From Prochlorococcus sp. MIT 0603 (GTDB lineage: Bacteria; Cyanobacteriota; Cyanobacteriia; PCC-6307; Cyanobiaceae), in the NCBI RefSeq assembly GCF_000760215.1, contig NZ_JNAW01000002.1:404300-468299 (forward strand): a stretch of DNA of 64,000 bases, in the 5' to 3' direction. Position numbers and translations under genes: made by a program. Position 1 is the first letter of the stretch; every line of letters begins with the position of its first letter. Below are positions 23,026 to 34,901 of the stretch, one piece after another. The notes beneath the pieces were generated by a model. It was not told the DNA's origin and ran no database searches. It was given only the letters and a program-made list of their open reading frames with translations.

Positions 23026-24090
23026 GTGAAAGAAGTACACCTGCAAATTACTGACCTTAGTCATCACTATGGAGATATTACTAGTAACGAGCTTTCTTTA
23101 AATTCTATAAATTTATCTCTATATAAAGGTGAACTTCTTGGCTTGTTAGGTCCTTCAGGTTGCGGCAAAACGACATTATTACGATTGATTGCTGGGTTTG
23201 AGACGCCTACTCAAGGCTCCATATCAATTGATAACCAAGTTATTTCATCATCTATTTATACTTGCCCTCCTGAAAAGAGAGGCATAGGTATGGTTTTCCA
23301 GGATTATGCACTTTTCCCTCATTTGGATGTTTGGAATAATATTTGTTTTGGATTAAAGCCTTCCCAAGATAAAAGTAGAGCCTACTGGCTTCTTGAATTA
23401 CTTGGTCTAAATGACTTGCAGAAAAGATATCCACATGAATTATCAGGAGGACAACGCCAACGACTCGGACTTGCAAGAGCATTAGCTCCTGGAACTTCTT
23501 TAGTGCTATTGGATGAACCTTTTAGCAGCCTAGATGTAGAAGTACGGTATAGATTAAGAAATCAATTAAGCGATGTTTTGAAAACTTGTTCGGCCACCGC
23601 GATTTTAGTAACACATGACCCTCAAGAAGCACTTGGTATATGTGATCGTGTAGCAGTAATGCGTGCAGGTGTTATTCATCAATGCTCGACCCCTCTTGAT
23701 TTACTAACAAATCCAGATACTCCTTTCATTGGACATTTTGTATCTCAAAATAATTTAGTTAAAATACATTTGAAAAATGGTTCATATAGCTCACCATTTG
23801 GAGATATTTTGGTCCAGACACATCTTCTTAAGTCTCCACCTCATACCCTAATGTTTGATGAAATATCGCTAGAGCTATTTCCATCGCCCGAAGGTAAAGC
23901 TATCATTAAAGGAAAGGAGTTTAATAATACAAACTGGATTTTTCGTGTTCAATATGATGATCAAGTCCTTAGAGTCTCATCACCTTTAGATTCTGATATG
24001 CAAATTGGTGATAGTTGCAAGATTAAGTTTATTTCTGGTAAATATGGTTATCTTTTCCCTGGTTGCATATCATGTGTTCTTAAATCATAA
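23026..24090 (+). CDS. ABC transporter ATPase, Fe3+/sulfate/spermidine type
   Basis: A 354-residue ATPase of the FbpC/CysA/PotA group. Motifs are Walker A LLGPSGCGKTTLLR, Q-loop MVFQDYALFPH, signature LSGGQRQRLGLARAL, Walker B LVLLDEPFSSLD and the switch histidine in ILVTHDPQEAL. The C-terminal about 110 residues form a TOBE-like regulatory region. It is most like the iron(III) importer ATPase (FutC/FbpC), and a ferritin lies downstream, but no permease or binding protein is in this window, so iron specificity is inference. The start is a GTG at 23026. Confidence 0.85.
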   Translation: MKEVHLQITDLSHHYGDITSNELSLNSINLSLYKGELLGLLGPSGCGKTTLLRLIAGFETPTQGSISIDNQVISSSIYTCPPEKRGIGMVFQDYALFPHLDVWNNICFGLKPSQDKSRAYWLLELLGLNDLQKRYPHELSGGQRQRLGLARALAPGTSLVLLDEPFSSLDVEVRYRLRNQLSDVLKTCSATAILVTHDPQEALGICDRVAVMRAGVIHQCSTPLDLLTNPDTPFIGHFVSQNNLVKIHLKNGSYSSPFGDILVQTHLLKSPPHTLMFDEISLELFPSPEGKAIIKGKEFNNTNWIFRVQYDDQVLRVSSPLDSDMQIGDSCKIKFISGKYGYLFPGCISCVLKS

Positions 24091-24417: not shown

Positions 24418-24975
24418 ATGACTGAGACCATACTGAATAAGCTGAACCTCAGCTCAAGTCCAGCAGGCCGTGCAATAGCTCAGCCTATGGACTCTCATTT
24501 GATAGAACTTCTTTATCAGCATTTAACCATTGAGAGGAATGCAAGCGCACAGTATTTTGCAATCTCAATTTGGTTTGCAGAAAGAGATCTAACTGGATTT
24601 GCAGAATTTTTCAAACAGGAGTCTTTCGATGAACACGAACATGCTTGTAATATTGCCAATTATTTAGTAGCGAGAGGCCAAACGGTAGTTCTTCATGATA
24701 TTTCAGCTCCAAAACAGCAATGGTCATCTATAGAGGAAGTAATAGCTGATTCTTTTCAAATGGAAGCAGATGTAACAACATCTATTCATCAGCTCTATTC
24801 ATCTGCAGAGAGATCGAATGACACAAGAACAACAGTCTTTTTAGACCCTATTATTGAAGCACAAATAAAATCAGAAGATACTTTTGCGCATATATTATCT
24901 AGAGTTCAGTTTGCAGATAATCAACCATCAGCATTATTAATAATAGATGGCGAATTTAATACTAATAAGAATTAA
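24418..24975 (+). CDS. Bacterial non-heme ferritin
   Basis: Iron-storage ferritin of 185 residues. The ferroxidase ligands are placed as in the family: E39 and Y46 in TIERNASAQYF, E72 and H75 in FDEHEHA, E116 in QMEAD, and Q149 in EAQIKSED. It stores Fe(III) in a 24-subunit cage, buffering iron needed for photosystem I. The neighbours are an iron-type ABC ATPase upstream and, convergent, a CRP-family regulator operon. The start is the ATG at 24418. Confidence 0.92.
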   Translation: MTETILNKLNLSSSPAGRAIAQPMDSHLIELLYQHLTIERNASAQYFAISIWFAERDLTGFAEFFKQESFDEHEHACNIANYLVARGQTVVLHDISAPKQQWSSIEEVIADSFQMEADVTTSIHQLYSSAERSNDTRTTVFLDPIIEAQIKSEDTFAHILSRVQFADNQPSALLIIDGEFNTNKN

Positions 24976-25264: not shown

Positions 25265-25858
25265 TTATGCTGATAATGGGGATTCTTCTACAAACTCTGG
25301 GGCTAAGCTCAAGGTGCTTTCTCCTGATGGAGCTAGAAGAAGGTCGGCCGACCTAAGTCTGCTGATTAAGCGAGTTGATGTGACACGAGTTGAGCCAATT
25401 AGTTCGCCTATCCTCTCGTGAGTCAACCTAAAAGGAAGTTGGCACCAATCTCCACATCTTCTACCTAATCTATTTACTAGTAAAGCAAATAATGCTTGTA
25501 GCCTTTGTTCTGCATTACCTAGGTGTCTAATTCTTAGAAGTTGAAGTGTCCATTCGTTAACTGCGTCAAAACCATTTGCTTCAGAGGCTTCTGTATCACT
25601 TCTAAAGCAAAGTTGAGTAAGAGCCTCAACACAAATGCCTTCACTGCAGAGCCTGTCAGTTCTGAGTTGGTCACCTGATTGAAGGAATGCAAGAGTCATA
25701 CCTTCAGTCTCTTCACAAGGACAATAGACTCTTGCGATTCCATCAATTACTTCTAGACAAGAACCTCCAGTTCTAGCTGATGGATCAATCAATACTGTTT
25801 GGCCTACGGACAATCTGACTTTAGGCACCGGACCGTCTGGCAAGAAACGATAATTCAT
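25265..25858 (-). CDS. CRP/FNR-family transcriptional regulator
   Basis: A 197-residue transcription factor with a shortened N-terminal beta-barrel sensor domain (residues 10-90) containing several cysteines (CPCEE, RLCSEGICVEA), a dimerisation helix near 105-130 and a C-terminal winged helix (FRLTHERIGELIGSTRVTST). It lacks a recognisable cAMP-binding signature, so the ligand is unknown; the cysteines could sense redox or metal, which is inference. It sits between ferritin and an antenna gene. Its upstream region holds a dyad and a long inverted repeat. Confidence 0.88.
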   Translation of the reverse strand: MNYRFLPDGPVPKVRLSVGQTVLIDPSARTGGSCLEVIDGIARVYCPCEETEGMTLAFLQSGDQLRTDRLCSEGICVEALTQLCFRSDTEASEANGFDAVNEWTLQLLRIRHLGNAEQRLQALFALLVNRLGRRCGDWCQLPFRLTHERIGELIGSTRVTSTRLISRLRSADLLLAPSGESTLSLAPEFVEESPLSA

Positions 25859-26156: not shown

Positions 26157-27212
26157 TTAGCCAGCTGTGATTTTAGCGTCTTCCATATTGTCGAACGCCT
26201 TGCCCACTCGCTTGAAGTCAAACCCCATACCTCTCAAGGCATGCCATAGATGTCCTTGAAGGAAGAAGAATCCAAGATAAAAGTGAACATTTGATAGCCA
26301 AGCTCTTGCTGTATGTGCATCGGCAGGCAAATCAGCTGTATCTACAAAATAAGGAGCAAACTCAAACTTAAGACTTAGAACCTCTCCATAGAGATCTGTT
26401 GGATAGATAGTAGTATTTGATGCGCACCAAAATGCTGCAACAAATGCACAATAAGCAACACCAGCTAAGGAGTAAGAGAGAACAGATTCAGCTGATAGAA
26501 GACCCTTCCCTTTAAATTCGGTGTATGTTCCATATTGTTTTGTAGCAATATGAAAAGCACCACCAATAATTAGGAAAAATGCTAGGAATGCATGCCCGCC
26601 CATTACATCTTCCAAACTATTAATAGTTAAGAAGTCAGCCTGATGGTTCCATATCATCCCAAGATCTAGGTTGTACTGAATTGTCCTAGTAACACCTTGA
26701 GCACTATCGTAGATTCCATGGATTCTTGCCCATTCAACGAATTGTATGTTTCCAAGGCCCAGGAAAATCAAGTGATGCCCGAGAATAAAAGTCAGCCTGT
26801 CTGGATCATCCCATTCAAAGTCAAACTTTTTAGCTCTTGAACCATCAGGATAATTCCCAAGATCCCCTTCATATCTCATCGAATGTAAAAGGCCACCGGC
26901 CCCAAGCACTCCAGAGAAAATCAGATGTAATACAGCTATGACAGTACAACCATATGGTTCTGTAATAACACCATTTGATACTCCACCAATGCCAAGACCA
27001 GCTAGATGAGGAAGGCAAATAAGGTTTTGATTGCCCATCGGCAATGATGAGTCATAACGAGCGAGTTCAAAGAGAGTAAAAGCTCCAGCCCAGAACATCA
27101 TCAAACCAGCATGTGCTGCATGGGCTGCGATGAATTTTCCTGAACGGTTCGTCGTCCCTGAGTTGCCCGCATACCAAGCGTAAGTAACGTTTGGGTTCCC
27201 GTAGGTCTGCAC
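26157..27212 (-). CDS. pcb: Prochlorophyte chlorophyll a/b-binding antenna protein, copy 1
   Basis: A 351-residue Pcb protein of the CP43/IsiA superfamily: six membrane helices that bind divinyl chlorophyll a and b and form an antenna around a photosystem. The conserved start MQTYGNPNVTYAWYAG uses a GTG codon. Helix histidines are seen in AAHAAHAGLM, ICLPHLAGLG, ILGHHLIFLG, WNHQADF and GFFFLQGHLWHALRG. It lacks the large lumenal loop of CP43. The neighbouring CRP-type regulator and ferritin suggest an iron-responsive copy, comparable to the iron-induced PcbC of strain SS120; that is inference. Confidence 0.95.
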   Translation of the reverse strand: MQTYGNPNVTYAWYAGNSGTTNRSGKFIAAHAAHAGLMMFWAGAFTLFELARYDSSLPMGNQNLICLPHLAGLGIGGVSNGVITEPYGCTVIAVLHLIFSGVLGAGGLLHSMRYEGDLGNYPDGSRAKKFDFEWDDPDRLTFILGHHLIFLGLGNIQFVEWARIHGIYDSAQGVTRTIQYNLDLGMIWNHQADFLTINSLEDVMGGHAFLAFFLIIGGAFHIATKQYGTYTEFKGKGLLSAESVLSYSLAGVAYCAFVAAFWCASNTTIYPTDLYGEVLSLKFEFAPYFVDTADLPADAHTARAWLSNVHFYLGFFFLQGHLWHALRGMGFDFKRVGKAFDNMEDAKITAG

Positions 27213-27300
27213 GAGAGAAATTTTTAAAGGCTCTATTAAATTATTGGACTCTTAAAGAACTGAGTAATCGCATTTCACATTGCTTATTACTAATGTAGCT

Positions 27301-27306
27301 TTTATA
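27301..27306 (-). promoter_or_regulatory. Candidate -10 element for pcb copy 1
   Basis: TATAAA on the minus strand (27306 down to 27301) would place a transcript start near 27294 and a leader of about 80 bases before the GTG at 27212. No clear -35 box is seen. The spacing resembles that proposed for the other pcb gene. The 27213-27430 gap between divergent genes holds nothing else that I can support. Confidence 0.3.
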
Positions 27307-27430
27307 CTTGATTTTGTATTCATCTGCTACTTCCTATGTCTAATATTTGATAAGTGTATGTTAATTGATACTCTTATAGAATTATTTTAACAACCTTCCG
27401 TTTATTCCAAACCGTTTTTTTTTTTTAGAT

Positions 27431-28162
27431 GTGAGTTTTATTTCAGGATCAGATTTAAATAAGCTTCTTAACGATCACTTTGAATTTGATCTTATTTATA
27501 CTAAAACACTCTTTATAATTTTGGGACTTTTAGGAGATTTTGACAGCTTTGAATATATCCAGTCTATTTTACCTTATTTAGAAAAACTACGAGAAGCACA
27601 TATTAATTTAGTTATTATTGGAATTGGTGACAATACCTCTAAAAAATACTTTTGCGATTATACAAAATTACCCTATGAATATTTAAATACTGTGCCGGAT
27701 TCAAAAATCCACAATAAACTTTGTCTAGAGTCAGGTCTAGATTTACCGATAAACCCTATATTCAACCTTACTCTTATGTGCCTAGGCATTAACTCACCAG
27801 GGACAATTAAAGAGGTGTTACGGGGATATACAGGCGACAAATATGCTAAGCAGATATTTAATTCACAACAAACAATAGATTTTTTCACATTGCTAAAATT
27901 TAAAGCAGAAATATTTGATTTAATATCAAAAGATGGCTCCCTTAGACCATTTGAGCTGGCTTCGATGAGACTAATGAACATGTTAGAAGTTATTTCCAAA
28001 TGGAATATCTATATGAATAATCATTCTTGTCTTACTCAAAGAAGTGGAACATTTTTAATAGGCTCAAATCAAGAACTCTTATATTCTTATAAGTCTAGGG
28101 GGCTTTTAAGTTTCTCAGAAACGATGTCTAATCCTATGCAATTTCTTCAAGAATGGCTTTGA
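27431..28162 (+). CDS. Peroxiredoxin-like (AhpC/TSA) family protein
   Basis: A 243-residue protein with a thioredoxin-fold core: FIILGLLGDFDSFEYIQSIL, then LREAHINLVIIGIGDNTSKK, and a C-terminal RSGTFLIGSNQELLYSYKSR, typical of the PRX-like2 AhpC/TSA group. The usual peroxidatic cysteine after the first strand is replaced by GDFDSFEY, so peroxidase activity is doubtful. The start is a GTG at 27431. A tiny zinc-ribbon membrane protein gene follows 13 bases downstream. Confidence 0.7.
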   Translation: MSFISGSDLNKLLNDHFEFDLIYTKTLFIILGLLGDFDSFEYIQSILPYLEKLREAHINLVIIGIGDNTSKKYFCDYTKLPYEYLNTVPDSKIHNKLCLESGLDLPINPIFNLTLMCLGINSPGTIKEVLRGYTGDKYAKQIFNSQQTIDFFTLLKFKAEIFDLISKDGSLRPFELASMRLMNMLEVISKWNIYMNNHSCLTQRSGTFLIGSNQELLYSYKSRGLLSFSETMSNPMQFLQEWL

Positions 28163-28175
28163 TCATTTTTATAAT

Positions 28176-28382
28176 ATGAGCTATAAAGTATGCAAGCGAT
28201 GTGGTTCAAGTGACCTCATAGCAGATAGGGCTTTAGCCGGACGTTTGATTTGCAGTGTATGTGGCTCATCTTCTTTAAAAAATTCTTATAATTTCATTAA
28301 TAAAAGCCTTTTGCCAAAATCTTATGGAAAGTTTATTTTCTATTTATTATTAGCTTTTTTCATAATATTTATTATATTTTAA
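28176..28382 (+). CDS. Small zinc-ribbon membrane protein
   Basis: A 68-residue protein with an N-terminal zinc ribbon (CKRCGSSDLIADRALAGRLI followed by CSVCGS, two CxxC knuckles about 17 residues apart) and one C-terminal membrane helix (FIFYLLLAFFIIFIIF). The layout suggests a membrane-tethered metal or protein-binding tag. It is probably cotranscribed with the preceding peroxiredoxin-like gene and overlaps the 3' end of the convergent ABC ATPase gene by four bases. Confidence 0.7.
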   Translation: MSYKVCKRCGSSDLIADRALAGRLICSVCGSSSLKNSYNFINKSLLPKSYGKFIFYLLLAFFIIFIIF

Positions 28383-29185
28383 ATTGCAGGCATTGCTGCC
28401 CAATAACCATTTTTATTTAATACAGTAACTTGATAATCATATAAGCTACTTATATTTTCAGAAGTTATTATTTTATGTGGTTCCCCGTCTGCAATTATAT
28501 TATTATCTTTTAATAAGATAATCCTATTGGTTTCTGGTATTATATTTTCTATATTATTTGTAGAGTACAATAAAGTTATACCATTGCTACTTAAAAGGCT
28601 TAAAGTTCTTAATAGTTTAAATTTTGATTTTATATCTAACATGCTTGTTGGTTCATCTAGAATAAGTACTTTAGGATTATTTATTATAGCTCTAGCAATT
28701 AACACCCTTCTTTTTTGACCATCAGAAAGTAGATTATAAGGTATATTAATTATGGTTTCTAAATCCATATTTTTAACAATGAGGTTATAATTCTCTAAAT
28801 CCTGAGAATTAATTAATCCCTTGTTTACAAGTCCAAAAGTTCCTTGATAGCCAGACAATATTACTTCAGATGTTATCATTTGACTTTTTATTCTTGAATC
28901 TATTTCAGTAAGTACAAATCCAATTCTAGTTCGAAGTTCCCATATATTAATGTTATTCAAATTAAATAATTTGATATAAGAGTCCTTTTTGGCTAGTGGG
29001 TAGATTAACTTAACAATAGCCTTGATAATTGTCGACTTACCAGAACCGTTTGAGCCTATAATAACAGTATTATCAAAAGAAGATATTCGAAGGTTTAGAT
29101 TCTTAAGTACCGTTTTATTTTTATAACATATATCTATATTTTTAAATTCAACCCAGTCATTACTTTTCAAAGTTGCTGACTCCAC
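28379..29185 (-). CDS. Stand-alone ABC ATPase
   Basis: A 268-residue ATP-binding subunit: Walker A VIIGSNGSGKSTIIKAIV, degenerate signature LLSDGQKRRVLIARAI (LSDGQ instead of LSGGQ), Walker B VLILDEPTSMLD. The switch histidine is replaced (TLLYSTNNIENI). This resembles the YlmA/ModF-like group of iron-complex ABC ATPases. No permease lies nearby. It starts 82 bases after the Rieske oxygenase stop on the same strand. Confidence 0.82.
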   Translation of the reverse strand: MESATLKSNDWVEFKNIDICYKNKTVLKNLNLRISSFDNTVIIGSNGSGKSTIIKAIVKLIYPLAKKDSYIKLFNLNNINIWELRTRIGFVLTEIDSRIKSQMITSEVILSGYQGTFGLVNKGLINSQDLENYNLIVKNMDLETIINIPYNLLSDGQKRRVLIARAIINNPKVLILDEPTSMLDIKSKFKLLRTLSLLSSNGITLLYSTNNIENIIPETNRIILLKDNNIIADGEPHKIITSENISSLYDYQVTVLNKNGYWAAMPAI

Positions 29186-29267
29186 ATTATATATAGTTCC
29201 CAGCTAGAAAAAAGGAAAATAGCCAAGTACAACCAATTAAGCCATATAGGCCTTTGATTGTTTTTCA

Positions 29268-30602
29268 TTAGAGCAATAAAAAGATACCTACAGGGACTAG
29301 AAGCCTTATAGCAACATTTATGATTAAACTTCTGGAGTTCTCATTTTCTAACTTTGGATTGGCTGGTGGATATAACATAGATATGTCTTGATGAACAGTA
29401 TTTGTATCTGTATTAGTTGGATATAGCTCCCAAGGCTTGTCTTTTGTATCTGAACTTTTAAACCAATCCCAATAATACTGAACCATCTTATCTTCACCTA
29501 GCAATTTAACATTGTCTTTCTCAAGAAAACCCATTTGCTCGTTATAAGTTTGTGTTCTTAAAATCATATAATCTTCTGCAAAAACTTTATAGAATACACG
29601 ACGTTGTAACTGCTTAAATAATAGTAATTTTGTAATCAAGGTATTCCTCATGAATTTCCTATAGTGCCTGACTATTACCCTTGATTGATTTTTGGATAAA
29701 GGTATATGATCCAAAACCTGAATATAACGTGCTTTTTTGGGATCACCTTTATATATTACTATCCTTCCTGGGGGGAGGAACTTTATCCTTATAAACTCAC
29801 CTTTGTCTTTGTCTTTGTATTTGTATATACTTTCAATCTGTGTAACTTCTTTTGTTATTTCTTGATTAAAACTTGTAATAACTTTCCTGTTAACCTCATT
29901 GTCCGGTATTGTTTCACCATGAACCCAGAACAAATGAAGTATATCTAGGTGGTTCTCTAATATTCGTGCCCATTCACATTTGAAATCGACTACTACTTCT
30001 TCATATGAGTAGTCATTAATGTCGAATCCATAGTTATTAAGTAAGCTAGAATCTAGTGAATTGCTTATGGTAAAATCATTTAAATTAGTTTTTGCTTTAC
30101 CTGTGTAGTAAATATAAATATAATCACCAATTTCTTTGCAAACATATTGATATAAATGTATCTTACTTGCGTAGTTATCGTAGTTATCGTCAACAATATG
30201 ATTACAAGTGATTCTACTTAAGTTTGTACATTTTCCATCAGAAGAGAATCTTGCGCCATGGTAAGGGCAGACTAGTTCTCCATCTATAACTTCACCCCCT
30301 ATAAAGGATGCACCTCTATGCGGACAAAGGTCTTTTACGCATCTCAACTCAGATTGTTTGTCCTTATAGACAACGAGAGGCTCGTTGAACATTGTGAAAA
30401 AGTATGCTTTCCCTTTGCTTAATTCTTTTACACTACAAACCGCATACCATCCTAATAGTCCAGTTTTTAGTTGGTTAGATGGCTTTTGAGCTTTGCTGTT
30501 AATAGCAGAATCGTCATTATTACTTGTAGATATGGTGTTTTCTAATGAGCTACCCGTGCCCAGTTGAACCTTATTAAATTGTGCGATTCCTTCGTCATTC
30601 AT
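29268..30602 (-). CDS. Membrane-anchored Rieske non-heme iron oxygenase (PaO/CAO-like)
   Basis: A 444-residue oxygenase. The Rieske 2Fe-2S centre is C93-x-H95 ... C112-x2-H115 (CPHRGAS; CPYHGARF), and the mononuclear iron site is D220-x2-H223-x4-H228 (HLDILHLFWVHGE). The C-terminal about 17 residues (VAIRLLVPVGIFLLL) form a membrane anchor. This is the architecture of the pheophorbide a oxygenase/Tic55/chlorophyllide a oxygenase group. It lies between two pcb genes. The divergent Prochlorococcus chlorophyllide a oxygenase, which makes chlorophyll b, is a Rieske protein of this kind, so this is a candidate; a PaO-like or unrelated substrate cannot be excluded. Confidence 0.85.
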   Translation of the reverse strand: MNDEGIAQFNKVQLGTGSSLENTISTSNNDDSAINSKAQKPSNQLKTGLLGWYAVCSVKELSKGKAYFFTMFNEPLVVYKDKQSELRCVKDLCPHRGASFIGGEVIDGELVCPYHGARFSSDGKCTNLSRITCNHIVDDNYDNYASKIHLYQYVCKEIGDYIYIYYTGKAKTNLNDFTISNSLDSSLLNNYGFDINDYSYEEVVVDFKCEWARILENHLDILHLFWVHGETIPDNEVNRKVITSFNQEITKEVTQIESIYKYKDKDKGEFIRIKFLPPGRIVIYKGDPKKARYIQVLDHIPLSKNQSRVIVRHYRKFMRNTLITKLLLFKQLQRRVFYKVFAEDYMILRTQTYNEQMGFLEKDNVKLLGEDKMVQYYWDWFKSSDTKDKPWELYPTNTDTNTVHQDISMLYPPANPKLENENSRSLIINVAIRLLVPVGIFLLL

Positions 30603-30784
30603 AGCTTGCGTTAACTTAAAGCATTGATTTCGCCCTAAGTTAATTTTGATACTACCCTAAAGGTCTTGAAAGATGGTGATGGGGATATTTATTTAAAGGA
30701 TCTGTAGCTTGATTTTAAGTAAAGGGGTGACACAGCTGAAATTATTTCGAGTTGTAATTGTCCCTTCGTTTATTTATATGTACT

Positions 30785-30988
30785 TTATTGCTGTTGTAAA
30801 TCTGATTGTTTAAGAGCTGTTTTGCTCTCTAAGTATTCAGTAGCTTCCTCGAGATCATTGCAAAACTTGCAGGTTCCAAGGTAGCAACCAAGGTATCTTT
30901 GAAATGAACTCTTACCTCCAGATAGCTCGTATGTATGGACTGTTCCGCCTTGTGGTGTGGTTAGAACAAGTTCAGGTGCTGAGCTCAT
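30785..30988 (-). CDS. Small conserved hypothetical protein with CxxxxxCxxC
   Basis: A 67-residue soluble protein (MSSAPELVLTTPQGGTVHTY...) with cysteines in GCYLGTCKFCNDLEEA, a possible metal or redox site. It appears to be one of the small picocyanobacterial proteins of unknown function. On the opposite strand a 28-codon hydrophobic GTG frame (30727-30813) overlaps its 3' end and is probably chance. Confidence 0.65.
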   Translation of the reverse strand: MSSAPELVLTTPQGGTVHTYELSGGKSSFQRYLGCYLGTCKFCNDLEEATEYLESKTALKQSDLQQQ

Positions 30989-31922
30989 TTAAATTAAAAG
31001 CTTTTTTAAAAAATGCAATTTGCCCCGCCTTTGCGCAATGAGTAATTAGACCTATATAAAGCTTAGTGATTACTTCTAGGAATTATTTATAACTGTTATG
31101 AGGTATGCATTTAATTTTGACGAATTTAAAAAGACTGCCTAAAAAAGTGTATACGTTTTCGGCAGTAATGAATATAGTAAATACCTTACTCCCTAGATAA
31201 AATAATACTTTTACTAGCTATCATTGAATAACATATAAATATTTATCTTTTTTTTAAACTATAGGAATACTTTGATAGCAATATAATCTTTGGATATTTA
31301 TTTATACTTAGATATATGACTAAGCAGATATTAAAAGGAATAATAACAAGTATATATTTATTTCACGTGCTAATATTTTAATAATTGTATTTAAAGTAGC
31401 TTGTTGTTCTGACTGGTCTCAACCTACAGCTAAACAATTATGTAGCTCTCTTTTGGTTTCGGTAATAATGCCTCTCAACTCATCAGATTTAGTTATTATT
31501 TCCAAAGTTCTCAGTGAGACTTCTTAGAAGAATATTCCTTGATTTTCTGGATTTATCTTTGTCGCTCCTTTTAGCTTCGATCCAGTGAGTTATCTTTTGT
31601 ACATCATAATTTAAATAAAGAATTTCTCATTGGTTTTTAATTTGTTTATTCGGGGAGTCTTAACCAATATGATTGGAATATATGAGCTTACTAGAGATGA
31701 ACTTTGTCTTTGCGATTTGAAGTATCGCTCAAAATAACTGGTATGACAGCATCGTGGGCTCATTTCTGCTCCTATTGTAAATGGATTTCATCCATGAACC
31801 AATTTTTAAATAATTCTATAATTAGTAGCGATCGGTAACAGTTTCAATAAGCGATGTAAATTTTCTAGCCTTCTTTCGCAACTTTTGTATATCTTGGATC
31901 CGTATTTTATTACATATTACTC
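30989..31922. other. Gene-poor interval upstream of pcb copy 2
   Basis: About 930 bases without a convincing gene. It holds only micro-frames. One is 31611-31763 (minus, 50 codons) with a strong ribosome binding site AGGAG six bases before its ATG. Another is 31669-31737 (plus, 22 codons, starting MIGIYELTRDELCLCDLKY). A third is a fragment near 31415-31520 (minus) reading KSDELRGIITETKRELHNC without an ATG. These look like decayed gene remnants or chance. The last about 100 bases are the antenna gene leader. No tRNA, repeat family or known small RNA was recognised. Confidence 0.5.
31817..31822 (+). promoter_or_regulatory. Candidate -10 element for pcb copy 2
   Basis: A perfect TATAAT lies about 100 bases before the GTG start, predicting a transcript start near 31829 and a leader of about 93 bases. 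No -35 consensus is seen, which is common in picocyanobacteria. Both pcb genes share the block CTCGTGCAGACCTACGG across the start codon. Confidence 0.4.
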
Positions 31923-32984
31923 GTGCAGACCTACGGAGACCCCAACGTTTCCTATGCATGGTATGCGGCAAATGCTGGCGCTGTTACTAACAAATCCGGC
32001 AGATTTATTTCATCGCATATTGCGCATACGGGCCTCATTTGCTTCGGAGCCGGTGCAAACACCCTTTTTGAATTAGCTCGTTACAACCCTGATGTGCCAA
32101 TGGGCTCACAGGGACTTGTTGTTCTTCCTCATCTTGCAGGGCTTGGTTTAGGTGGAATTTCTAATGGTGTTTTTACTGACACTTACCAGTTGTTAGTCGT
32201 AGCCATACTTCATCTGATTCTTTCAGGTGTTTATGGCGGTGGTGGTATGCTCCACGCCTTTAGATACGAGGAAAAACTAGAGAGTTATCCTTCTACATCA
32301 AGAGCAAATAAGTTTAAGTTTGATTGGAATGATCCAGACAGACTTACCTTTATTCTTGGTCACCATTTGCTTTTCCTTGCAGCTGGCAACATTCAGTTTG
32401 TTGAATGGGCTAAGTGGCATGGAATTTATGATTCTGCATCTGGAGCTGTTCGTCAGGTTGAATACAACCTAGACCTTGGCATGATCTGGAATCATCAATT
32501 TGACTTCCTTTCTATAAGTAGCTTGGAAGACATTATGGGTGGACATGCTTTCTTGGCATTCTTTATGGCTGCTGGAGGAATTTTCCACATCCTTACTAAG
32601 AATTATGGTGAGTACAACTCATTTAAAGGAGCTGACATCCTTTCTGCTGAATTTGTACTTTCAACATCATTAGCAGGTGCTGCTTATACAGCATTTGTTG
32701 CCGCATTATGGTGTGCATCTAATACCACCATTTACCCAGTTGATCTTTATGGTCAGATTCTTGAGTTTAAATTAGGAATTGCACCTTATTGGATTGATAC
32801 TGATACATCCCTAGCCGCTGATGCACACACAGGTCGTGCATGGTTGACCAATGTTCACTTCTTCATTGGATTCTTCTATCTTCAAGGTCATTTCTTCCAT
32901 GGTTTAAGAGCCCTTGGATTTGACTTCAGAAGTATCGGCAGATTGTTTGACAATCTTGAGTCAACAGAAACTTCCCTTAATTAG
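31923..32984 (+). CDS. pcb: Prochlorophyte chlorophyll a/b-binding antenna protein, copy 2
   Basis: A second 353-residue Pcb protein with the same six-helix CP43/IsiA-type architecture. It starts at a GTG with MQTYGDPNVSYAWYAANAGA, and the helix histidines are conserved (ISSHIAHTGLI, VLPHLAGLG, ILGHHLLFLA, WNHQFDF, GHFFHGLRALGF). It is clearly diverged from copy 1, so the two are not a recent duplication; they may serve different photosystems or conditions. It has its own strong terminator and stands alone on the plus strand. Confidence 0.96.
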   Translation: MQTYGDPNVSYAWYAANAGAVTNKSGRFISSHIAHTGLICFGAGANTLFELARYNPDVPMGSQGLVVLPHLAGLGLGGISNGVFTDTYQLLVVAILHLILSGVYGGGGMLHAFRYEEKLESYPSTSRANKFKFDWNDPDRLTFILGHHLLFLAAGNIQFVEWAKWHGIYDSASGAVRQVEYNLDLGMIWNHQFDFLSISSLEDIMGGHAFLAFFMAAGGIFHILTKNYGEYNSFKGADILSAEFVLSTSLAGAAYTAFVAALWCASNTTIYPVDLYGQILEFKLGIAPYWIDTDTSLAADAHTGRAWLTNVHFFIGFFYLQGHFFHGLRALGFDFRSIGRLFDNLESTETSLN

Positions 32985-33050: not shown

Positions 33051-33185
33051 GATGGTTAAATTCTTGCTAATATTGTAAATTGTATTATTTGATTTAAATT
33101 AAAATCGATTCTCAAAAGATATTATATGAATATTATTTTTAGCTGATGATCTAATTTTCTCTTGTATATTAAGGAAAAAGTATTA

Positions 33186-33377
33186 ATGTCACTCAAAGAT
33201 CAACTAGGAACAAAGGTCTTTACTAAGGAAGGTACAGACCAGGACAGAAAAGGGAAGGTGCTTCCTATGAAGCCTGAGAATATATTGCCAATTTGGCAAT
33301 TGTTAATAGCTGGGCTGAGTGCAGTCATATGTGTAATACCTATAGTTATTAATTTATTCAATCAGGCTAACCATTAG
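33186..33377 (+). CDS. Small single-helix membrane protein
   Basis: A 63-residue protein; I choose the ATG at 33186 (MSLKDQLGTKVFTKEGTDQD), 24 bases into the open frame. A charged N-terminal half is followed by one membrane helix (IWQLLIAGLSAVICVIPIVI). It resembles thylakoid accessory proteins in layout but lacks the ExxNxR signature of high-light-inducible proteins. Function is unknown; it follows pcb copy 2 but is separated from it by a strong terminator. The 33378-33635 gap shows nothing I can support. Confidence 0.6.
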   Translation: MSLKDQLGTKVFTKEGTDQDRKGKVLPMKPENILPIWQLLIAGLSAVICVIPIVINLFNQANH

Positions 33378-33635: not shown

Positions 33636-34901
33636 TTAAGGTTTAAATGACTTGTTAAATAAAAAGATCAATGAACGAGTTGCTAAGGTTAAAGTTAAGT
33701 TTATAAGCAATAAAGATAAAGTCTTCTTGTTAAATCCTTTTGTGTAATAATTTATTCTTCTATTGACTTCTATCAGTTTTTTAAATGGGGATATGCTTGA
33801 GAATATTATAAGCTTTAATTGTGAGAACAGTTTATATTTAGTGTATATTAATTCTATTTTTGTTGTTTCTTTTTTCAAAAGAGTGAAATTACTATATTTC
33901 GGACTTTGATTTTTTATATCAACAACAATTTGATTAAATAAGTTAGCAATATTCTTCGAGCTGTATCCACATACTACTGAATCATATGTATCCATAGATA
34001 TAGAGGTAAGTTTACTATCATTATTTTTAATGTAATTTTGACAATATAAACCTTGAGATTCTCCTCGAGGTATTTCTTGAATTGGTATGAAAGAAGAATC
34101 TAAGGTTACATATTTTCTTTGAGGTAAGATCTCAGAAAAACAAATACAGCCATTTAAAGCATATTGTATTAGCCTACTTTTCCTCTGAAGCTGTAAGTAT
34201 TGAGGGAAGTTTTTTTTTCCATAAGTGTCTCTAGGAGCTATAGAGGTTGAATTGTAGAAAAACTTTGTATTTCTAATTATTTTATGAAGATCATCATTGC
34301 TTAGAGGATTTAATGTGGAGTCATGAATGAATAAATTAGGGAAATACTTATTTAGATCTTCAAAGAGTGATTTTCTTCCTTTTCTGTCAAATCTTCCTAT
34401 AAAACTAAAATCATATTTCCTTTGTTTCAATGGAATAAGTGAGGAATAAGAGGTATTTGCATAAATAAAAGAAGAGATCTCATGATTAAACAATGATCCA
34501 TCATATGTTGGTATTCCATATACTTCAAAAAATGATCGATATTCTGGTTCTTCGAGAAGAACCCCATCGAATAGAAATTGTGAATAAACATAAGAAGTCT
34601 GATAATGCTCTGCAATATCTCCTAAGCAAACCAGCAAATAGTAATTCTTTTTAAGCAAAGATAACTCTCTACATGAAAGATCAGGTAGATTAATAAAAAT
34701 GATAATATCTTTAACAAGAGTGTCCGTTTCTGTTTTTAATTTAATATCTAATAATGATTGATATTTTAATATATTTATTTTATGGAATTGACGATGAATA
34801 TCTATAAAATCTATTTTCCTTAGAAGGATCTCTATTACCTCTATTTTTATCTTTGCTTCGCTTTTTACTGCAAGATAAATTGATGGAGATCTTATATGCA
34901 T
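33636..34901 (-). CDS. Glycosyltransferase-like protein (CgeB-like)
   Basis: A 421-residue, very AT-rich gene. The middle segment YDFSFIGRFDRKGRKSLFED and the later block KSRLIQYALNGCICFSEILP resemble CgeB-type glycosyltransferases, where a V-S-F-V-G strand and an R-x-F-E-A-L-A-x-G-A helix bind the sugar nucleotide. The C-terminal about 20 residues are hydrophobic. It stands alone next to a tRNA remnant and looks like accessory cell-surface material; its enzymatic role is uncertain. Confidence 0.5.
   Translation of the reverse strand: MHIRSPSIYLAVKSEAKIKIEVIEILLRKIDFIDIHRQFHKINILKYQSLLDIKLKTETDTLVKDIIIFINLPDLSCRELSLLKKNYYLLVCLGDIAEHYQTSYVYSQFLFDGVLLEEPEYRSFFEVYGIPTYDGSLFNHEISSFIYANTSYSSLIPLKQRKYDFSFIGRFDRKGRKSLFEDLNKYFPNLFIHDSTLNPLSNDDLHKIIRNTKFFYNSTSIAPRDTYGKKNFPQYLQLQRKSRLIQYALNGCICFSEILPQRKYVTLDSSFIPIQEIPRGESQGLYCQNYIKNNDSKLTSISMDTYDSVVCGYSSKNIANLFNQIVVDIKNQSPKYSNFTLLKKETTKIELIYTKYKLFSQLKLIIFSSISPFKKLIEVNRRINYYTKGFNKKTLSLLLINLTLTLATRSLIFLFNKSFKP

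Follow-up and report, generated by a model that had tools for sequence, protein, structure and literature searches.

PcCAO is a divergent Rieske protein, and its expression in a cyanobacterium reportedly yields chlorophyll b. The gene has been described as specific to Prochlorococcus and as encoding its chlorophyll b synthase (PMC3441193, citing Satoh & Tanaka 2006), and it appears as CK_2331, a predicted chlorophyll b synthase and Prochlorococcus marker, in PMC10284923. By description, the canonical CAO enzymes of Prochlorothrix, green algae and plants likewise combine a Rieske centre with mononuclear iron and share the same proposed reaction (PMC9615114, PMC7242693), in which the C7 methyl group is oxidised twice (PMC7242693); the four CAO enzymes treated in the excerpt of PMC9615114 include none from Prochlorococcus. 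Our analysis of a 64,000-nucleotide stretch of Prochlorococcus sp. MIT 0603 (the window, within which all coordinates are given; host genome 1.75 Mb in 7 contigs, given as 100% complete) indicates that its 444-amino-acid Rieske protein is almost certainly the orthologue of PcCAO and thus the chlorophyll b synthase of this Prochlorococcus species. The gene and its functional elements are the following:

29268..30602, minus strand: probable PcCAO orthologue, a Rieske non-heme iron oxygenase of 444 amino acids that would convert (divinyl) chlorophyll(ide) a to b
30258..30326, minus strand: Rieske [2Fe-2S] ligand motif, C93-x-H95 ... C112-x2-H115, ligand columns invariant in 28 aligned proteins
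29919..29945, minus strand: mononuclear iron motif, D220-x2-H223-x4-H228, present in 73 of 73 distinct orthologues
29571..29573, minus strand: D344 in F-x-EDY, likely third iron ligand, invariant in the 28-protein alignment and with its motif in 73 of 73 orthologues
29277..29333, minus strand: residues 424-442, a hydrophobic C-terminal stretch that, from hydropathy and the structure model, is a probable membrane anchor

The protein scores 77.4 bits against the Rieske domain (PF00355) and 34.1 bits against a VanA_C-type catalytic domain, and the complete set of iron ligands announced by an earlier, sequence-only reading of this DNA is indeed there: C93, H95, C112, H115, D220, H223 and H228, together with the likely D344. 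All eight residues are invariant across the 28 aligned proteins, an alignment whose residue numbering is one lower than that used here. We take H223 and H228 to be iron ligands and D220 to be the bridge. The assignment of D344 as the likely third ligand rests on its invariance and its motif, because the structure-profile alignments stop short of this region, which is left uncovered in the four printed alignments of the profile search against solved structures. Among the 73 distinct orthologues, a separate set that includes the protein of the window, the strict CPHRG...CPYHG pattern is found in 68; the other five (from genomes G082, G041 and G129, and both G108 proteins) retain C-x-H...C-x2-H with different neighbouring residues. 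The structure model (mean predicted local distance difference test score, pLDDT, 73.2) has the fold of Rieske monooxygenases, its best match being dicamba monooxygenase DdmC (Z 25.7, 3.6 A over 307 residues, 16% identity). DdmC and SxtT/GxtA are alike in fold (Z about 23-26), but they differ in having 16-20% identity and other substrates, and the part of the model beyond about residue 391 falls outside the alignment. As for the C-terminal membrane anchor claimed by the sequence-only reading, the C-terminus is hydrophobic and predicted to be helical (Kyte-Doolittle mean 1.85 over residues 424-442, with a model helix of pLDDT about 49-74), and the best C-terminal window of 19 residues reaches a hydropathy of at least 1.6 in 68 of 73 orthologues; anchoring itself is plausible on these predictions.

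The identity of the gene is carried by its uniqueness in the host genome and its distribution in the family. The earlier proposal of a chlorophyll b synthase would have been in difficulty had the genome held another orthologue of PcCAO, and the whole-genome search returned two Rieske domains, that of the 444-residue protein and that of PetC, encoded beside apocytochrome f, with no other Rieske oxygenase found. We surveyed 251 genomes of the family Cyanobiaceae, sampled from a larger set: 77 carry a close orthologue (E <= 3.4e-56), after which the matches fall to E 1.6e-16 at best (59 bits, 25% identity). Phycobilisome status was scored in the same genomes as the count of phycobilisome-domain matches, since TIGR03041, the Pcb antenna family, is by itself not diagnostic: a Pcb count was tried as a Prochlorococcus marker and dropped, as 124 of the 251 genomes pass TIGR03041, including phycobilisome-bearing ones such as G132, presumably owing to IsiA. 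At most two phycobilisome-domain matches were found in 98 genomes and three or more in 153; all 77 genomes with the orthologue are among the 98 and none (0/153) is in the other group. The orthologue is present in 40 of 40 low-phycobilisome genomes that are at least 95% complete, and in 44 of 47 that are at least 90% complete. The 46 named loci recovered in a search for close relatives of the protein are all from Prochlorococcus, and it is on these loci that the restriction to this genus rests. The 444-residue protein thus resembles PcCAO (Satoh & Tanaka 2006; Cyanorak CK_2331) in being the sole Rieske oxygenase found, in being restricted to Prochlorococcus and in occurring where phycobilisome gene sets are missing, with no difference found. 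The candidacy put forward by the sequence-only reading is supported both by this singularity and by the way the gene follows the lack of phycobilisomes.

The sequence-only reading had also labelled the protein as PaO/CAO-type and had considered a role in pigment turnover, as expected of an enzyme resembling pheophorbide a oxygenase (PaO/Tic55/PTC52). The two belong to the same broad Rieske oxygenase superfamily, and a weak match to the PaO domain (PF08417) is detectable at E <= 0.01 in 27 of the 28 orthologues (best 9.4e-6), which points to a real, if distant, kinship. The label is nonetheless too loose: the protein scores 22.1 bits (25.5 bits in the genome search), under the Pfam gathering cut-off of 27 bits, and in 14 genomes picked by handle the domain is below cut-off in all six Prochlorococcus-like ones (20.1-25.5 bits), against 85.6-93.7 bits for the PaO-family gene in all eight phycobilisome-bearing ones. 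The PaO-family oxygenases of phycobilisome-bearing picocyanobacteria share the Rieske and mononuclear motifs, and many are of similar length, but they are only about 20-27% identical to the protein over aligned parts (one fragment reaches 38% over 79 columns) and their motif context differs, with CPHRL in 29 and NVLDVSH in 28 of the 30 sampled. A tree of 73 proteins made by a quick method sets the PcCAO group (57 rows) apart, with support, from the family's other Rieske oxygenases, the two sides being joined by a very long branch; this tree was thinned and built without canonical CAO, two of its rows (L067 and L153) are flagged as long, and 18 have an odd letter make-up. A turnover enzyme would also leave the presence of the gene with Pcb antennae and its absence elsewhere unexplained, and no Rieske enzyme would then be left in the host genome to make chlorophyll b, so that we regard this explanation as very improbable. 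We give still less credit to the idea that the protein acts on some other substrate and that chlorophyll b comes from an unrelated enzyme. Family membership leaves the substrate unfixed and the fold neighbours act on many substrates, but PMC3441193 and PMC10284923 describe PcCAO as the Prochlorococcus-specific chlorophyll b synthase, and the host genome offers no other Rieske oxygenase in the search made.

Several points weigh against the identification as PcCAO. The link to the published protein was made by elimination and distribution and not by direct sequence comparison, and the substrate cannot be read from the sequence. Furthermore, 21 of the 98 low-phycobilisome genomes have no orthologue; all 21 are at most 94% complete, and this number is somewhat above the 14.7 +/- 3.2 absences expected from incompleteness. 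Among the 77 genomes counted as positive, G004 has a broken copy only and G178 a fragment only. If the identification as PcCAO is right, the enzyme would be a Rieske/mononuclear-iron oxygenase, probably held in the membrane through its C-terminus, that converts the C7 methyl group of (divinyl) chlorophyll(ide) a into a formyl group by two oxidations, and the resulting (divinyl) chlorophyll(ide) b would then be loaded on the Pcb antennae. We infer this reaction from published work on PcCAO and from CAO enzymology, and membrane attachment, a trimeric state and an electron donor are suppositions too. The PcCAO gene is already known and its arrangement, also present in genome G001, is ordinary for these organisms; the 444-residue gene is therefore worth annotating rather than a discovery. 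What the analysis adds is how closely the gene follows the absence of phycobilisomes over 251 genomes and how it separates from the PaO family, together with two conserved neighbours that are possible partners of PcCAO, a 67-residue gene and an ABC ATPase.

The PcCAO copies of two genomes depart from the usual state. In G004 (L042, 8001-9331) the reading frame is broken by stop codons, which may reflect decay or a sequencing error, and the downstream pcb gene is strongly diverged (31% match). G108 has two divergent PcCAO genes (L152 and L153), 56% identical over 389 residues, one at the same place as in G082 and the other in a crp/ferritin locus adjoining the ABC gene. Both contigs are collinear with G082, and the G108 assembly is 85% complete with 1% contamination; the two-copy state suggests either an old duplication followed by loss or a mixed assembly.

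Around the oxygenase gene, the window contains the following features:

24418..24975, plus strand: ferritin, a frequent neighbour
25265..25858, minus strand: Crp-family regulator, a frequent neighbour
26157..27212, minus strand: Pcb antenna gene of the photosystem-I-type group, 98% identical to the G001 gene at 804379 (SS120 pcbC position by order)
27431..28162, plus strand: AhpC/TSA_2 peroxiredoxin-like protein, a frequent neighbour
28379..29185, minus strand: lone ABC ATPase; 45 of 46 named loci have it downstream of PcCAO, in the same orientation
30785..30988, minus strand: 67-residue open reading frame (ORF) without family name; 43 of 46 named loci have it upstream of PcCAO, in the same orientation
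31923..32984, plus strand: Pcb antenna gene of the photosystem-I-type group, 95% identical to the G001 gene at 809698 (SS120 pcbG position by order)

The three ORFs first noticed here, for the oxygenase and the two antenna proteins, are confirmed at these positions. Both flanking proteins are Pcb by TIGR03041 (547 and 498 bits, cut-off 335), as the sequence-only reading had it, and the host genome has eight Pcb genes above the family cut-off. Neither pcb gene directly adjoins the oxygenase gene: the ABC ATPase and the peroxiredoxin-like gene intervene on one side, the 67-residue ORF on the other. G001 has a single orthologue, 74% identical to the 444-residue protein, and shares the order pcb, peroxiredoxin-like gene, ABC gene, PcCAO and pcb. 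Its eight Pcb positions follow the order of the SS120 accessions given in PMC2644788, and the flanking genes therefore correspond to pcbC and pcbG, a naming that comes from order. In a tree of 38 Pcb rows, the two flanking proteins and nine others form a group of 11 (support 97) apart from the other 27; the tree is unrooted, was rooted at its midpoint and built without CP43 rows, and its row L173 is a neighbouring gene (identical to L206). The group holds the one IsiA-like protein of the tree and the G082 pcb gene that lies beside crp and ferritin, and it corresponds to the grouping with SS120 PcbC and PcbG, MIT9313 PcbB and IsiA, the SS120 names being taken from gene order. Group I of Prochlorococcus Pcb is thought to serve photosystem I (PMC2644788), and the flanking proteins are thus probably photosystem-I-type antennae, not the main photosystem-II antennae. 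By analogy with their family they would bind chlorophyll b, and it is fair to call them users of the pigment. In the excerpt of PMC11559063, an article on pcb evolution, the word oxygenase does not occur.

The sequence-only reading held that proximity to pcb genes is suggestive but not proof, and the survey of loci bears out this caution, making proximity weak evidence. A downstream pcb gene is found in 36 of the 46 named loci (in L008 and L042 only 31-37% alike) and absent from six, the contig ending too early in the other four; an upstream one is found in eight of 46, all close relatives of the window. Six further genomes (L154, L158 and L169-L172) have no pcb gene beside PcCAO, and in G082, G041 and G129 none of the locus genes is near it. 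The crp-ferritin locus of G082, which includes a pcb gene, was found about 300 kb from PcCAO and has no PcCAO of its own. Conservation extends to the Crp, ferritin and transporter genes, so that adjacency is in part general synteny; conserved adjacency was rejected as a proof of function, the order of the neighbours being equally conserved.

The ABC ATPase begins 71-1201 bases past PcCAO in 45 of the 46 named loci, the contig ending in the remaining one, but was not found in L157, G082, G041 or G129. Of 30 phycobilisome-bearing genomes, 22 contain a close relative (E below 1e-48). In the eight regions read around this relative the other locus genes are not alongside, with the one exception of a match to the ABC gene at 23026-24090 about 4 kb off. 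An insertion of PcCAO into a locus conserved in relatives was also considered and dropped, as no empty site was seen in these eight phycobilisome-bearing regions.

The 67-residue protein has no Pfam or NCBIfam match, and its common motif is GGTIHxY...GGK...GCYLGxCKFCN, which includes C-x5-C-x2-C. In the 43 named loci that have it, its gene is on the PcCAO strand, within 700 bases in 32 and at about 3-3.8 kb in 11; of the three named loci without it, L048 starts inside PcCAO. In 38 genomes picked by handle, seven of eight Prochlorococcus-like ones, among them the host genome of the window, have it with E values of 8e-11 or lower and G108 is without it, while the 30 phycobilisome-bearing ones gave four weak matches (E 0.002-0.004) and 26 none. 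The gene lies away from PcCAO in G082, G041, G129 and G043, which argues against a strict partnership. One could imagine that the 67-residue protein, PcCAO, the ABC ATPase, the peroxiredoxin-like protein, the photosystem-I-type Pcb, the Crp regulator and ferritin make up an old functional island that links the making of chlorophyll b with iron status and with antennae of the photosystem-I type, in which either the 67-residue protein or the ATPase may be a helper of PcCAO and of which one lineage keeps two divergent PcCAO genes, but we consider this unlikely.

No relative of the 444-residue protein was found among viral contigs, and phage records gave six distant Rieske matches only, all from Acinetobacter phage. 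At the Rfam gathering threshold, tRNA is the only RNA element in the window. A 421-residue ORF at 33636-34901 (minus strand) matches nothing in Pfam or NCBIfam, and no relative turned up in the PcCAO loci that were searched. A 71-residue ORF at 33162-33377 (plus strand), located downstream of the second pcb gene and likewise without a match in Pfam or NCBIfam, contains one hydrophobic stretch and is matched in six of the 46 named loci (L003-L006, L008 and L042).

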